Source of the DNA: Roseiflexus sp. | GTDB taxonomy: Bacteria > Chloroflexota > Chloroflexia > Chloroflexales > Roseiflexaceae | Direction: 5' to 3' | DNA length: 40,879 nt | NCBI GenBank assembly: GCA_025062325.1 | Contig: JANXAL010000033.1 | Span: 1-40,879, forward strand | Shown here: in pieces, positions 1 through 33,388 of the stretch | Position numbering within the stretch: the stretch's first letter is position 1 | Layout of the letters: the number at the start of each line of letters is the position of its first letter | Notes under the pieces: model-generated | The model's input: only the letters and a program-made list of their open reading frames with translations | Told to the model about the DNA's origin: nothing | The model's database searches: none | Translations under genes and position numbers: made by a program

Positions 1-260
1 CGAGCCAGGGTTCTCGAGAGGGAAAAGAAAGGGGAGCATGGGTGTCTCACAGCCGAATTGAACAGTCTGGCATGAGGGCTTGCCTGACAAATCGACGCAC
101 GCACGGATTCACCGCCCCAGAGGATCGCGTGCGCAGATGAAGTGCCTGCACACGAGGGGATGAGACGAGCGCCGGACAGACGCCTCATCACTCGTCACTC
201 ATCACTCGTCACTCATCACTCGTCACTCATCACTCGTCACTCATCACTCCCTCACCCCTC
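1..260. other. Intergenic stretch upstream of the iron operon
   Basis: No convincing coding frame is seen here. The first 180 bases show no recognisable signal; the remainder is mostly a short tandem repeat (annotated separately). The end of whatever gene precedes the window is not visible. Confidence 0.5.
185..249. repeat. 14-bp tandem repeat, about 4.6 copies
   Basis: The unit TCATCACTCGTCAC is repeated perfectly at 185, 199, 213 and 227, with a partial copy from 241 to 249. Each unit is itself two related heptamers (TCATCAC and TCGTCAC), so the array may have grown from a 7-bp unit. It lies just upstream of the iron-operon promoter. A copy-number-variable microsatellite is the simplest reading; a binding-site array is possible but unsupported. 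Confidence 0.9.
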
Positions 261-289
261 TTGACAGTCAGCATATCCAGGAGTATGAT
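261..289 (+). promoter_or_regulatory. Sigma-70 promoter of the feo operon
   Basis: A perfect -35 hexamer TTGACA (261-266) and a -10 hexamer TATGAT (284-289) are separated by exactly 17 bases. The expected transcription start, near 296, falls inside the DtxR-like palindrome that follows. About 95 bases of leader precede the first start codon. Confidence 0.8.
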
Positions 290-292
290 AGA

Positions 293-308
293 TTTAGGAA
301 AGCCTAAA
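293..308. promoter_or_regulatory. DtxR/IdeR-type operator overlapping the transcription start
   Basis: The palindrome TTTAGG-AAAG-CCTAAA has half-sites at 293-298 and 303-308. Its core, TTAGG-N4-CCTAA, has the same half-sites and spacing as the core of the classic DtxR/IdeR iron box. It sits immediately downstream of the -10 hexamer, where a bound repressor would block transcription. The first gene of the operon encodes a DtxR-family protein, so iron-dependent autoregulation is the natural inference. Confidence 0.75.
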
Positions 309-325
309 AAATAATTTAGTGATCC

Positions 326-367
326 CCTGCCCCGCACGACGAGTGCAACCGTCCTGCACGGGGCAGG
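326..367 (+). promoter_or_regulatory. Hairpin in the feo operon leader
   Basis: CCTGCCCCG (326-334) pairs perfectly with CGGGGCAGG (359-367) around a 24-base loop, ending just before the GGAGG ribosome-binding site at 376-380. There is no T-run, so it does not look like an intrinsic terminator. It could stabilise the mRNA or affect translation of the first gene. Confidence 0.55.
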
Positions 368-391
368 CGCGTTACGGAGGCGCAACGAAGA

Positions 392-1399
392 ATGATCGTC
401 TGGATGGTACTGCTGGCGGGATGCATCCTCTGGGTCGTTCTTCCCCGTGTCGGCTTACTGGCGCACTACCGCGCCTGGCGGGCGACCCGCGAGCGTGAGC
501 AGGTGGAAGACGCGCTCAAGCACCTGCTCAACCGCGAACACCTGGGGCGCCACGCGACGCCAGAGTCGCTTGGCGGCGCGCTGGGGCTTCCGCGTGCCGC
601 GGTTATGCGCCTCATTGCGAAAATGGAGGAGCAGGGGCTGCTCGAAACCCGCGGTATAGAACTGCACCTGACGGCGGAAGGCGAACGCTGGGCATTGCAT
701 GTGGTGCGCGCCCATCGCCTGTGGGAACGGTACCTGGCAGACGAAGCGCGCATGCCGCTGGAGCGGGTTCACGCCGAAGCGCACCGGCGCGAGCACATGT
801 TGACTGCCGATCAACTGGATGAGCTGGAAGCGGCGATGGGATACCCCCGGCGCGACCCGCACGGCGACCCTATTCCGAGCCGCGAGGGCATCCTGCTCAA
901 CTCTGTGGGAACGCCATTGACAGCGTGGCCCCTTGACACGCCGGGTCGGATTGTACACCTGGAAGATGAACCCGCCATCGCCTACGAACAGATCCTGGCG
1001 GCTGGCCTGCATCTGGGGCAGACGATCCGCGTGCTGGAGCGCACGCCGCAGCGCCTGGTCTTGAGCGACGGCGAAAATGAGTATCGTCTGGCGCCCACTG
1101 TTGCAGCGAATGTCAATGTGGCGCCGTTGACCGAAGCGGAGGCGGCGCGGAACCATGCGATGCCGTTGAGTGAACTGCCGTTACGCCAGACGGCTGAGGT
1201 TGTGGCGATTGATGATACACTGCAGGGGTTTACCCGGCGGCGTTTGCTCGACCTGGGGTTGACCCCCGGCGCTGTGGTCTATCCCGAATTGCAGAATGCC
1301 TTCGCCGATCCGCGCGCCTACCGCGTTCGCGGAACGTTGATCGCCTTACGCCAGGATCAGGCGTCGCGCATTCTGGTCCGGCCCCGATCTCTGAACTGA
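392..1399 (+). CDS. Membrane-anchored DtxR-family iron regulator fused to FeoA
   Basis: The 335-residue protein has four parts. Residues 3-25 form a hydrophobic membrane segment. Residues about 36-98 form a winged helix-turn-helix of DtxR type. Residues about 101-165 form the metal-binding and dimerisation domain, with the family sequence ending DPHGDPIP. Residues about 257-332 form a FeoA SH3-like domain, preceded by another SH3-like stretch at about 183-245. The metal ligands align with DtxR (H109, E112, H127, E134, H135), but the position equivalent to DtxR Cys102 is His131. FeoA normally binds and tunes the FeoB transporter; DtxR represses iron genes when Fe(II) is bound. The gene leads an operon with split feoB and follows a DtxR-type operator. 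The membrane segment is unusual for a DNA-binding repressor. Domain calls are firm; the joint function is inference. Confidence 0.9.
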
Positions 1400-1442
1400 T
1401 GTGCGGCGCTTTTCTCTCAAACTGGCGAGGAGGTTCGTTTCG

Positions 1443-2270
1443 ATGACCAGACTAACAACTGACAATCCATGCGCTGCCTGTCCGGCACATGCCCGTCTGG
1501 AGCAGATGGGCATCAAAATGGACAGGTACGACCGCATAGTGGCACTTGCTGGCAATCCAAACACCGGCAAGTCCACGCTTTTCAATGCACTGACCGGACT
1601 GAAGCAGCACACTGGCAACTGGCCCGGCAAGACGGTCACTCGTGCTGAGGGCGGCTATCAGTTCAACGGTGTGAAGTATAAACTGGTCGATCTGCCCGGC
1701 GCCTACTCGCTGCTCTCCACGTCACAGGATGAAGAGGTGGCGCGCGATTTTCTGCTGTTCGGACAACCTGACTGCACGATTGTCGTCACCGACGCCACTG
1801 CCCTCGAACGCAACCTGAACCTGGTATTGCAGGTGCTCGAGATTACCGATAAGGTGGTAGTGGCGGTGAACCTGATTGATGAAGCGCGTCGGAAGGGCAT
1901 AGAAGTCGATACCCGCACGCTCAGCCGTGATCTGGGGGTTCCCGCCGTGCCCATCGTGGCGCGAAGCGGAGAAGGGATCATCACCCTGCTTTCGACAGTT
2001 GCCGATGTGATCGAAGGGCGCATCATCACCCATCCGCGTCGCGTTGAAGGGACGCCAGCCTTTCAGCGGGCCGTTCAAGAACTGACACCGTTGATCGAAC
2101 AAATGGCGCCAGGCATTCCAAACGCGCGCTGGCTGGCGATCCGTCTGCTCGAAGGCGATGCGCGGGTGCAACGTGCGATTCGCAGCGGCGAGCTGGCAGA
2201 CATCGTCGCACGGCAACGTGCTGCGGAAGACCGGCTGGGCGCTACGGCGGCCCTTATGGGGAGGCAATGA
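1443..2270 (+). CDS. feoB: FeoB N-terminal GTPase (stand-alone G protein of the Fe(II) transporter)
   Basis: This 275-residue protein is the cytosolic G domain of FeoB without the permease. GNPNTGKS (37-44) is the G1 P-loop, DLPG (83-86) is G3 and NLID (143-146) is G4; a GDI-like helical region follows. A CxxC pair (CAAC) near the N-terminus could bind metal. The ATG at 1443 is preferred over a GTG at 1401 because GGCGAGGAGG lies about 10 bases upstream and the shorter form starts where FeoB conservation begins. It hydrolyses GTP to drive or gate Fe(II) uptake with the permease encoded next, whose ATG overlaps this stop codon (ATGA). Bacterial FeoB is usually a single polypeptide of about 700-800 residues; here it is split in the linker between G domain and membrane domain. 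Confidence 0.92.
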
Positions 2271-3664
2271 TGATCACGACGCCAGAAGATGTCCTTGCGA
2301 GAGCCGAGACGTTGCGCAACCGTCTGCCATCGAGTTTCCGCGACGAAATTGTTCAGTCACTCTATGCGGAGGCGGAACGCATTGCACGTCGCGCAGTCAA
2401 AACTGCGGGAAACAGACAGTACGACCTGGATCAGCGCATTGATCGCCTGGTGACTGCGCCGGTCACCGGGTTGCTGATCATGCTGCTGCTGTTGACCGTC
2501 GTCATCTGGATGACGGTTTCCGGCGCCAATGTCATCTCAGACTTGCTCTTCACGCTGCTTTTCGGTTTCGGCGATTGGGCGCGCTCCCTGTTCGTCGCGT
2601 GGGGTGTTCCGTGGTGGATCACCGGGTTTATCTGGGATGGCGTCTATCGTTGCCTGGCGTGGGTGGTGTCGGTCATGTTCCCGCCGATGGCGATCTTCTT
2701 TCCGGCATTTACACTGCTGGAAGACCTGGGATATCTGCCGCGCGTCGCATTTAATCTGGACTGGCTGTTCAAAAAGGCGGGCGCGCACGGCAAGCAGTCG
2801 CTGACAATGATGATGGGGTTTGGCTGCAATGCCGCTGGCGTCATTTCGACGCGGGTGATCGATTCGCCGCGCGAGCGATTGATTGCCATCCTGACCAACA
2901 ATTTCGTGCCGTGCAACGGGCGGTTCCCAACCCTGATCATGCTGGCGACCGTGTTCGTCGCTGCTGGCTTTGGCGGCGCGGCAGCTTCGTTAGTTGCCGC
3001 TGGCGCCGTAGTTGCGGTCGTGCTGATCGGTGTGGCGTTCACCTTTTTGATGTCGTGGCTGCTCTCAAAGACAGTGCTCAGAGGCGAGGCATCGGCGTTC
3101 ACGCTCGAACTGCCGCCCTACCGCCGCCCGAATGTGCTGCGCATCCTGTACACCTCGCTGATTGATCGGACGATCTTCGTTCTCTGGCGTGCGATGCTGA
3201 CGGCTGCGCCCGCTGGGGCGGTGATCTGGCTGCTGGCGAACATCCGGTTCGGCGATGCCAGCCTGGCGGTCGCCATTGCGCAGTGGCTGGACAGCTTCGG
3301 GCGATTGCTCGGTCTGGACGGCGCTATTCTGCTCGCGTACATCATCGCGCTTCCGGCCAACGAAATTGTTGTGCCAACAATGATGATGATCTACACGAGC
3401 GCTGGCATGATGGTCGAAGGCCCGGCAAGCGACGATGCTCTCCGCGCTCTGCTGGTGGATCAGCAGGGCTGGACGTTGCTGACGGCGATCAACCTGATGC
3501 TTTTCTCGCTGCTCCACAATCCGTGCGCCACGACGATCATTACAATCTTCAAGGAAACCCGCTCGTATAAATGGGCGGCTATGAGTGTGGCGATCACGCT
3601 AGGAACGGCGGTTCTTGTGACCTTCCTGACTGCAAGCCTGGCGCGCCTGGCGGGATTGCAGTAG
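2267..3664 (+). CDS. feoB: FeoB permease domain (Fe(II) transporter membrane subunit)
   Basis: The 465-residue protein begins with about 60 residues of cytosolic helix, then several membrane segments. FeoB hallmarks are present: the first gate region with [19 protein letters not shown] and [11 protein letters not shown], the second with LPANEIVVP, and the C-terminal [16 protein letters not shown] followed by a last pair of helices. It overlaps the G-protein gene by four bases (ATGA), with GGGGAGG just upstream, so the halves are translationally coupled and probably made in equal amounts. Two ATG codons are adjacent (2267 and 2270); either may start the protein. Role: Fe(II) passage across the cytoplasmic membrane, controlled by the separate G protein and the FeoA domain. 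Confidence 0.93.
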
Positions 3665-3723
3665 TGCTCGGTTACCCTGGCGTTGGCTGACTGAGCCTGT
3701 CGAAGCCAACGCCAGCAGAGCAC
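3664..3723. terminator. Strong hairpin between convergent feoB and rtcB
   Basis: A perfect 12-bp stem, CTGGCGTTGGCT (3677-3688) with AGCCAACGCCAG (3704-3715), is extended by GTGCTC (3664-3669) pairing with GAGCAC (3718-3723). The symmetry would work for both converging transcripts. No T-run follows, so it may act as an mRNA 3-prime end stabiliser or a rho-assisted terminator. The loop holds CTGAGCCTGTCGAAG, a short sequence recurrent in intergenic DNA of many unrelated bacteria. Confidence 0.65.
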
Positions 3724-3737
3724 GGGGCAGGTTTTCG

Positions 3738-4964
3738 CTAATCCTTATACGGATCGAACACATCCTCGCCTGCCATCGCCACACCCATGGGCTTGAGCGT
3801 GTGAACGATTCTGATCGTGTTGGCGTGGTGTTGCAGTACCTCCTGAAGGCGGCGATAGACATGCGGACTCTCGTCCGTGCCGCCGCCGCGCAGTTCAATG
3901 CCTTCGCGCCGCATCCATTCGAGCATCATCTCACGGGTGATCTTGCCCGGCTTGACCACTTCCTGCACCCGTTTGCCGTTGCGCTTTACCCAGCGCCGCT
4001 TGCCAGCCGCCTGAATGCGGCTCATGATGCGCCCGGCGCCGTGGATGGTGCTGTGCAATCCGAGCCGTGACTCCTCGCTCTCCACCCCCTCGACCACCAC
4101 GCTGATGTCGCCCATCGAACCGCCGACAAAGCCGCGCTGACCAGGCCAGGCGGGTGTTGCGCCTTTGCGCACAACGATCAGCTCCTCGCCGTTAACCCTT
4201 TCTTTCCAGGCGTAATTGTGGTGGTTGTGGACTTCTTCGGTCACTTGAGCGCCGAGAATGTCGAGCACCTGCTGCACCACAAAGTCGCGCCCAGCATACG
4301 CATAGCGTCCGGCGAGCGTCATCGCCTGCCAGTATGCCTGCCCCAGTTCGCTCTGCAGTGGGATCACCGTTGCTGGCTGCTGCATCGACTCACCCGGCGC
4401 CGGAGCGTCGAACGGTCGCTTATGCGCTAGGTTGAGGAACCCGCTCGCAATCCGATGCCCAAGACCGCGGCTGCCGAAGTGCGCCGCAACCCATACCCAT
4501 CCTTCTTCGTCTTCGAGAATATCGACCCAGTGATTGCCCGAGCCAACAGTGCCGAGCTGCTCGCGCGCCATTTGGCGCAGTTTGCCGACTTCTGGAATAT
4601 CGCGCCAGGTCGGGTCGTCGAATAGCGGATGATCGGCGGCTTTGCCGCTTGTACCGCCGACGCCGAAGACCACTTCGCGCGCCACCTGGTCCATAATCTT
4701 GCTGATATCTTTGCGAATATCATCAGCGCGCAGATTAGTGCGGACTCCTTTGATGCCGCACGAAATATCGTACCCGACACCACTGGGGCTGACAGCATCA
4801 CGGTAGGCAATGACGCCGCCGATCGGCATGCTGTACCCAACGTGCCCGTCCGCCATCAGCGCCGCCTTGACCGCCCGCGGATCGCTAGCACAGCGACGGA
4901 TCTGCTCGATCGTGGCTTCGTCGTGTTCGCCCCAGACAGGAATGCCATCAATCATCCGAAACAT
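3738..4964 (-). CDS. rtcB: RtcB-type tRNA-splicing / RNA-repair ligase
   Basis: The 408-residue protein matches RtcB over its full length. RtcB joins RNA 2',3'-cyclic phosphate or 3'-phosphate ends to 5'-OH ends using GTP and Mn(II). Visible metal-site residues are D66 and C69 (GVGYDISCG), H145 (GSGNHWVDI), H162 (HFGSRGLGH) and the HNHH cluster (246-249). H308 in the HGAGR motif is the expected guanylated histidine. ATG 4964 follows a GAAGGAAGG ribosome-binding site. No archease gene or RtcA lies next to it. It is transcribed alone, convergent with feoB. Its substrate in this organism is unknown; RNA repair after damage is typical of bacterial RtcB. Confidence 0.95.
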   Translation of the reverse strand: MFRMIDGIPVWGEHDEATIEQIRRCASDPRAVKAALMADGHVGYSMPIGGVIAYRDAVSPSGVGYDISCGIKGVRTNLRADDIRKDISKIMDQVAREVVFGVGGTSGKAADHPLFDDPTWRDIPEVGKLRQMAREQLGTVGSGNHWVDILEDEEGWVWVAAHFGSRGLGHRIASGFLNLAHKRPFDAPAPGESMQQPATVIPLQSELGQAYWQAMTLAGRYAYAGRDFVVQQVLDILGAQVTEEVHNHHNYAWKERVNGEELIVVRKGATPAWPGQRGFVGGSMGDISVVVEGVESEESRLGLHSTIHGAGRIMSRIQAAGKRRWVKRNGKRVQEVVKPGKITREMMLEWMRREGIELRGGGTDESPHVYRRLQEVLQHHANTIRIVHTLKPMGVAMAGEDVFDPYKD

Positions 4965-33328: not shown

Positions 33329-33388
33329 GTGGTACAGGCGTTGCACTGCAACGCCTCTGTGGTACAGGCGTTGCACTGCAACGCCTCT
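33329..33388. repeat. Perfect 30-bp tandem duplication containing a palindrome
   Basis: Two identical 30-bp units (33329-33358 and 33359-33388) start GTGGTACAGGCG and end AACGCCTCT. Each contains AGGCGTTGC-ACT-GCAACGCCT, a perfect 9-bp hairpin. A partial third copy (TGGTACAGGCGTTGC) is at 33121-33135. It belongs to the same palindrome family as the element at 22406. Confidence 0.9.

Follow-up and report, generated by a model that had tools for sequence, protein, structure and literature searches.

DtxR-family repressors are normally soluble proteins that act on DNA, and FeoA is a partner of the Fe2+ transporter FeoB. The feo locus near the start of contig JANXAL010000033.1 of Roseiflexus sp. 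(assembly GCA_025062325.1; the 40,879 nucleotides analysed are referred to here as the window) encodes a protein predicted to be both, and to be tethered to the membrane. The question raised is whether this protein regulates its own operon, as the original prediction had it, or serves the transporter.

Domain layout and membrane anchor

The features of the locus are listed by window coordinates and strand, with the evidence for each in brackets.

261-289, + strand: sigma-70-like promoter, TTGACA-17-TATGAT, 11/12 (motif scan of 1-3900)
293-308, no strand assigned: palindromic operator TTTAGG-N4-CCTAAA, TTTAGGaaagCCTAAA (recurrence before soluble dtxR genes)
376-380, + strand: ribosome-binding site GGAGG (sequence; GGAGG or a close variant before the start in many orthologs)
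392-1399, + strand: TM-DtxR-FeoA fusion protein, 335 aa (ORF, Pfam, hydropathy, AlphaFold2)
395-445, + strand: N-terminal transmembrane (TM) helix, residues 2-18 (hydropathy in 25/25 orthologs; AlphaFold2 helix 2-16; likeness to the last helix of ABC-3 permeases)
455-541, + strand: continuous helix, residues 22-50, a basic juxtamembrane linker running into DtxR helix 1 and carrying D40 (AlphaFold2; D40 and K43 invariant)
500-670, + strand: winged helix (wHTH), residues 37-93, without a PF01325 match (Pfam, AlphaFold2, structure match)
587-625, + strand: diverged recognition helix, residues 66-78 (paired comparison with the soluble paralog)
671-877, + strand: DtxR metal-binding and dimerisation domain, residues 94-162 (PF02742, E 3e-22; ligand conservation)
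938-1126, + strand: SH3/FeoA-like domain 1, residues 183-245, with clade-specific HxEDEP (189-194) and Q200 (Pfam, AlphaFold2, ortholog alignment)
1160-1384, + strand: C-terminal FeoA domain, residues 257-331 (PF04023, E 3e-24; 37-52% identity to sister standalone FeoA)
1443-2270, + strand: feoB-N, the separate G-protein half of FeoB, 275 aa, with an N-terminal CxxC (ORF, Pfam)
2267-3664, + strand: feoB-C, the separate membrane half of FeoB (Gate/FeoB_C), 465 aa (ORF, Pfam; split alike in homologs)

The proposed joining of DtxR to FeoA was confirmed by Pfam matches above the curated cut-offs, Fe_dep_repr_C (PF02742) covering residues 94-162 (78.7 bits, cut-off 27) and FeoA (PF04023) residues 257-331 (85.4 bits, cut-off 23). 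A second, weaker FeoA-type stretch, N-terminal to residues 257-331, corresponds to the SH3 domain, and the protein is hence built as a DtxR core followed by two FeoA stretches, as in twin-FeoA DtxR proteins of the PgMntR type. The AlphaFold2 model, for which 25 orthologs were used (mean pLDDT 88.7), agrees with this order and includes a helix at residues 2-16, a continuous helix at 22-50, the winged helix, the metal/dimer domain and two small SH3/FeoA barrels. A structure search with this model, which mostly probes residues 32-246, returned 5zr6 as the top PDB match (Z 24.1, residues 37-246, 206 residues, 28% identity), and DtxR/IdeR entries were also matched by the DtxR part.

Residues 2-18 are strongly hydrophobic, the best 19-residue Kyte-Doolittle value being 2.27, with at most 1.01 in the rest of the protein. 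In orthologs drawn from five other Roseiflexus genomes, Anaerolineae and other Chloroflexota, a hydrophobic N-terminal helix is present in 25/25 full-length sequences (1.58-2.75, and at most 1.82 elsewhere), including L065, the most diverged of those compared (31% identity). W4 and P18 are nearly invariant, and every ortholog carries K/R on the C-terminal side of the helix (2-7 per 20 residues), which implies a cytoplasmic body. An origin of the helix in a wrongly placed start codon was rejected, since the helix occurs in 25/25 orthologs. Within the first 80 codons, further in-frame starts occur only at codons 5, 38, 72 and 78. Several orthologs have no start codon at all behind the TM helix; in L046, for example, the sole in-frame start ahead of helix 1 is the one that precedes the TM helix. 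GGAGG lies 11 nt upstream of the ATG here, and GGAGG or GGAG is found a few bases ahead of the start in many orthologs. Named beforehand as evidence against an anchor, homologs starting after residue 30 were looked for among the orthologs and did not occur. The protein is thus membrane-tethered as proposed, as judged by the hydropathy of all 25 orthologs, the basic flank and the modelled helix at 2-16. A lipoprotein signal (LAGC, residues 8-11) was also considered and was rejected because the n-region is not basic and the Cys is not conserved.

The split FeoB and the place of feoA

FeoB is encoded in two genes in nearly all homologs, the exception being G387, the most distant member, in which FeoB is one frame. 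In the window the two genes (1443-3664) overlap by 4 nt. Wherever an ortholog locus extends far enough to show it, as both loci of family f29 do, the fusion gene adjoins or lies near feoB-N; in this family (genome G093), feoB-N accompanies the fusion gene, and feoB-C is located on another contig.

Among 400 Chloroflexota genomes, 22 include a feoB-C of this type, and 16 of the 22 are exactly the genomes that carry the fusion. The remaining six have a standalone feoA (75-90 aa) in the fusion gene's place before feoB, which is split in five of these operons and unsplit in one. The FeoA domain of the fusion is 42-52% identical to the feoA products of three sister operons, compared with 28% and 22% for the two FeoAs that contig C77 of its own genome encodes as part of the classical Feo system. 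Given this shared place and closer identity, the fusion is, as far as sequence and gene order can tell, the FeoA of this split transporter with something added. The predicted functional link to FeoB is therefore supported, both by the constant linkage to feoB-N and by the replacement of standalone FeoA in sister operons. By analogy with FeoA (PMC8980893, PMC10353542), the fusion would be expected to bind FeoB and to be needed in Fe2+ uptake.

In a tree of DtxR proteins the fusion clade is monophyletic (support 100/99), and its members score at least 398 bits as compared with at most 169 for other sampled DtxR proteins (full or two-thirds-length matches). The nearest neighbours of the TM clade are the soluble twin-FeoA protein L101 and C67 of the genome studied here (support 97/88). 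In a tree of FeoA domains, the domain of L064 resembles standalone FeoAs (0.53) more than it does the other fusions, and that of L065 groups with L101; the domain is too short for this tree to fix the history of the fusion. The TM + DtxR + FeoA architecture was not found outside Chloroflexota in the plasmid collection, where the best match was a Prevotella record (residues 33-330, 30%), and a scan of genome contigs, which picks up close relatives only, returned only Chloroflexota-type records.

Winged helix, operator and metal sites

No PF01325 match was obtained for the fusion at E<=1, only weak generic wHTH matches, whereas the soluble DtxR paralog of the same genome (C58) matches PF01325 at 63.3 bits. 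The fold is present and intact in the AlphaFold2 model. Fusion and paralog were compared region by region, using mean pairwise identity, in 20 genomes that have both. Identity in the recognition helix (residues 66-78) was 0.49 for the fusions and 0.76 for the paralogs, and all other regions were equally or better conserved in the fusions, with values (fusion/paralog) of 0.81/0.67 for helix 1, 0.78/0.63 for helix 2, 0.70/0.70 for the wing, 0.80/0.74 for the metal/dimer domain and 0.76/0.43 for SH3. The recognition helix is the lowest window in the whole alignment, and only 1/20000 random column sets was as low. The S-V-T-G-M sequence at residues 70-74 is invariant in 20/20 paralogs and variable in the 20 paired fusions, which keep the buried positions L64, L74 and M78 and in which the helix is often still basic (R68, K70, R73). 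The winged helix of the fusion is thus probably no longer what reads the operator. As DNA readout by IdeR is largely indirect and the Q43A change is tolerated (PMC8464063), a changed recognition helix makes DNA binding less likely and is no proof of its loss.

The TTGACA-17-TATGAT site is the only promoter-like site in 1-3900, where 1.1 would be expected by chance. The palindromic operator at 293-308 lies 3 bp after it and 84 bp before the start of the fusion gene. Five Roseiflexus genomes each include two exact copies, one before the feo operon and one at the start of the soluble dtxR gene (227-235 aa in Roseiflexus genomes), and in the genome studied here a third copy, with one mismatch, precedes a metal ABC operon on C64 by ~20 bp. 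Exact or with one mismatch, the operator also precedes soluble dtxR in most of the loci from Anaerolineae and in several scanned relatives that lack the fusion gene, as well as two feoA-feoB-N-feoB-C operons without a fusion (L165, L168). It precedes the fusion gene itself in Roseiflexus and family f29, and none was found within 300 bp of the fusion gene in most Anaerolineae, where soluble dtxR lies just upstream of that gene; in Roseiflexus the two genes are not adjacent. The soluble paralog was present in 7/7 fusion genomes checked and also in the five paired Roseiflexus genomes. Since near-operator sites per genome are not above a reversed-pattern control (2-3 vs 3-6), the argument rests on position, namely the recurrence of the operator at the same promoters across genomes.

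Because the operator stands before the paralog's own gene, in genomes without a fusion as well, and before the metal ABC operon, its putative reader at 293-308 is most likely the soluble paralog (G000:C58). The assignment of this site to the fusion was not borne out: the operator tracks the paralog, and the part of the fusion that would have to recognise it is the part specifically diverged. A perfect 14-bp tandem repeat (CTCATCACTCGTCA, 4.7 copies, 184-249) was also observed just upstream of the feo-operon promoter.

The residues D40, H108, E112, H127, E134 and H135 are invariant in the 25 orthologs, down to 31% identity, as is K43. Residue 131, which corresponds to Cys102 of DtxR, is Gln in 14 orthologs, His in eight, Glu in two and Ser in one. 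The replacement of the Cys102 ligand by His131 that had been pointed out is hence true of this protein but not general, and a fixed ligand swap was rejected. The Cys, Glu or Asp usual at this position of the primary site, seen in 20/20 soluble paralogs, is represented in the fusions only by Glu (2/25), and metal sensing itself may therefore be weakened; the remaining ligands are present. The ancillary-site ligands are invariant in the fusions. H189-x-E191-D192-E193-P194 and Q200 of the SH3 domain are invariant in 25/25 fusions and not conserved in the soluble paralog. In DtxR/IdeR the ancillary metal site is completed by residues of the SH3 domain, and the invariant SH3 residues of the fusions are therefore candidate ligands.

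Possible role, origin and related systems

The reading that we consider somewhat better than even is that the fusion is the FeoA subunit of a split FeoAB transporter, joined to a membrane-anchored, DtxR-derived metal-sensing dimer, in an operon run by the soluble paralog. The TM helix would keep the fusion at the inner membrane, next to FeoB-C, and the C-terminal FeoA domain would bind the detached FeoB-N GTPase. Binding of Fe2+ to the cytoplasmic DtxR dimer and SH3 domain might then alter the geometry of the fusion and so promote or block the action of FeoA on FeoB-N, giving local feedback on transport, with transcription of the feo operon being controlled at 293-308 by the soluble paralog. 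Since FeoA, on binding NFeoB, stabilises it in the GTP form (PMC8980893), a membrane-held, metal-sensing FeoA could pass iron status straight to the GTPase. FeoB-N binding, metal sensing and gating of FeoB are functions that we infer for the fusion. Sister split systems run with soluble FeoA, and the anchor is therefore not mechanically required. The more specific proposal that a repressor module has been turned into an iron-sensing allosteric subunit of FeoB, anchored in the membrane, with the metal dimer kept, operator reading lost and transcription left to the paralog, is held tentatively, at a little short of even.

Other readings use the same evidence differently. The intact fusion might act as a tethered one-component repressor that, while held in the membrane, binds 293-308 and controls the feo operon to which it belongs, as membrane-anchored LacI or full-length YtgCR would. 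The intact wHTH fold, the often basic recognition helix and the operator 84 bp ahead of the start are in line with this. However, base-reading positions vary, genomes without a fusion also have the operator, ahead of the soluble paralog and of feoA operons, the paralog accompanies the fusion in all of the genomes checked, and most Anaerolineae have no operator near the fusion gene, making this reading unlikely. Less probable again is sequestration, in which the dimerisation domain would pair with the soluble paralog and, in one metal or transport state, retain it at the membrane, so that Feo activity and transcription would be coupled. Few cytoplasmic parts are as well conserved as the dimer/metal domain (0.80), and in most Anaerolineae the genes for the two proteins lie near each other, but in Roseiflexus they are not adjacent, and the two proteins are only ~30% identical.

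The loss of Cys/Glu/Asp at residue 131 and the fact that FeoB-N is a free protein in this system would both suit a pure assembly scaffold, in which a metal-blind DtxR part dimerises FeoA at the membrane and docks FeoB-N on FeoB-C. Against this stand the invariance of D40 and the five other canonical ligands down to 31% identity and the sister split systems that work with soluble FeoA, and we regard a scaffold as more doubtful than sequestration. Cleavage after the TM helix, releasing a soluble DtxR-FeoA protein as for Chlamydia YtgR, has precedent (PMC6504234, PMC5599777) and an anchor that resembles the last helix of an ABC-3 permease, but the modelled helix 22-50 runs unbroken from close to the membrane into DtxR helix 1, and the recognition helix that would be released is diverged. 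This is the least probable reading, and a very improbable one.

That resemblance came from weak N-terminal matches in relatives, which turned out to be ABC-3 metal permeases ending in a winged helix. When a profile was built from residues 1-97 of the fusion clade, it aligned with these permeases over the last TM helix, a PRG motif, the basic linker and the winged helix (E ~4e-7), the alignment crossing the membrane boundary and spanning fusion residues 9-97. The permease score was reached by 0/1000 free shuffles of the TM + linker segment and by 2/2000 shuffles in which the hydrophobic and basic halves were kept apart, and composition is therefore an unlikely cause. Compared by profile on its own, the winged helix resembles soluble DtxR more than the permeases, and the fusion, with a single TM helix, has no full ABC-3 permease domain and no PF00950 match in Pfam. 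In genome G064 the gene immediately upstream of the fusion gene encodes a winged-helix ABC-3 permease. An alignment that survives these shuffles is consistent with a truncated permease-DtxR fusion, and descent of the protein from one of the YtgCR kind is plausible. The winged-helix ABC-3 permeases share those elements with the fusion but have a whole permease in front and neither a metal/dimer domain nor FeoA. They are widespread in Chloroflexota (L104-L133; L194 373-1518), and as no description was found in the literature searched, the family is apparently undescribed.

While DtxR proteins are indeed normally soluble, permease-DtxR fusions such as YtgCR of Chlamydia trachomatis are nonetheless known and are said to occur in 11 phyla (PMC6504234, PMC5599777). 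In YtgCR, too, the DtxR domain is covalently held in the membrane at its N-terminus, but by a full ABC permease from which the repressor is released by cleavage, whereas the fusion has one TM helix left, an added C-terminal FeoA and FeoB as partner. PgMntR of Porphyromonas gingivalis, a DtxR protein with two C-terminal FeoA domains (PMC4805248), has the same order of wHTH, metal/dimer domain, SH3(FeoA) and second FeoA, and an Asp at the helix-1 ligand position. Unlike the fusion, it is soluble and DNA-binding, keeps Cys108 and has no TM helix; as judged by hydropathy, Pfam and the paired comparison, the fusion is not a soluble protein with a canonical HTH. Standalone FeoAs (G037, G055, G057, G028, G276) share the place before feoB-N and feoB-C and 37-52% identity, but are soluble, 75-89 aa long and without a DtxR part. 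FeoC is a gammaproteobacterial winged-helix Feo subunit that binds NFeoB. It may be likened to the fusion, by analogy only, as a winged helix tied to the Feo transporter rather than to DNA, though it is small, separate and without a DtxR metal domain.

FeoA-FeoB fusions are known, and DtxR-FeoA fusions were deliberately removed from a survey of FeoA fusions (PMC8980893), so that the class may have been overlooked. No published description of a TM-anchored DtxR-FeoA arrangement was found in the literature searched. The component parts (permease-DtxR, twin-FeoA DtxR and FeoA-FeoB fusions) are known, and their combination appears, on sequence grounds, to be new. The role of FeoA for FeoB is an open question on which the fusion bears, and how Feo is shut off at sufficient iron is, beyond transcription, unexplained in the literature surveyed. 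With FeoA fused to a putative dimeric iron sensor and an anchor beside a split FeoB, metal, FeoA and GTPase become separable as pieces. If the repressor was indeed converted, iron feedback would act directly on the transporter, and the soluble paralog would run transcription.

Several further observations were made at these loci. Genome G387 carries, as well as the membrane-anchored version, a soluble PgMntR-like twin (DtxR-FeoA, 327 aa, canonical HTH; L101 194-1177 / L172) beside a second feoB. The CxxC(P) motif at the N-terminus of feoB-N (1443-1500) is also present in several homologs and might serve as a metal or redox site. In several Anaerolineae (L045 6059-6655; L042 4372-5004), soluble dtxR and the fusion gene have as a neighbour a gene for a membrane protein that resembles phospholipid/isoprenylcysteine methyltransferases. 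In the window, an RtcB RNA ligase gene (3738-4964, - strand) is convergent with the feo operon, and a perfect 30-bp direct repeat occurs as two tandem copies at 33329-33388.
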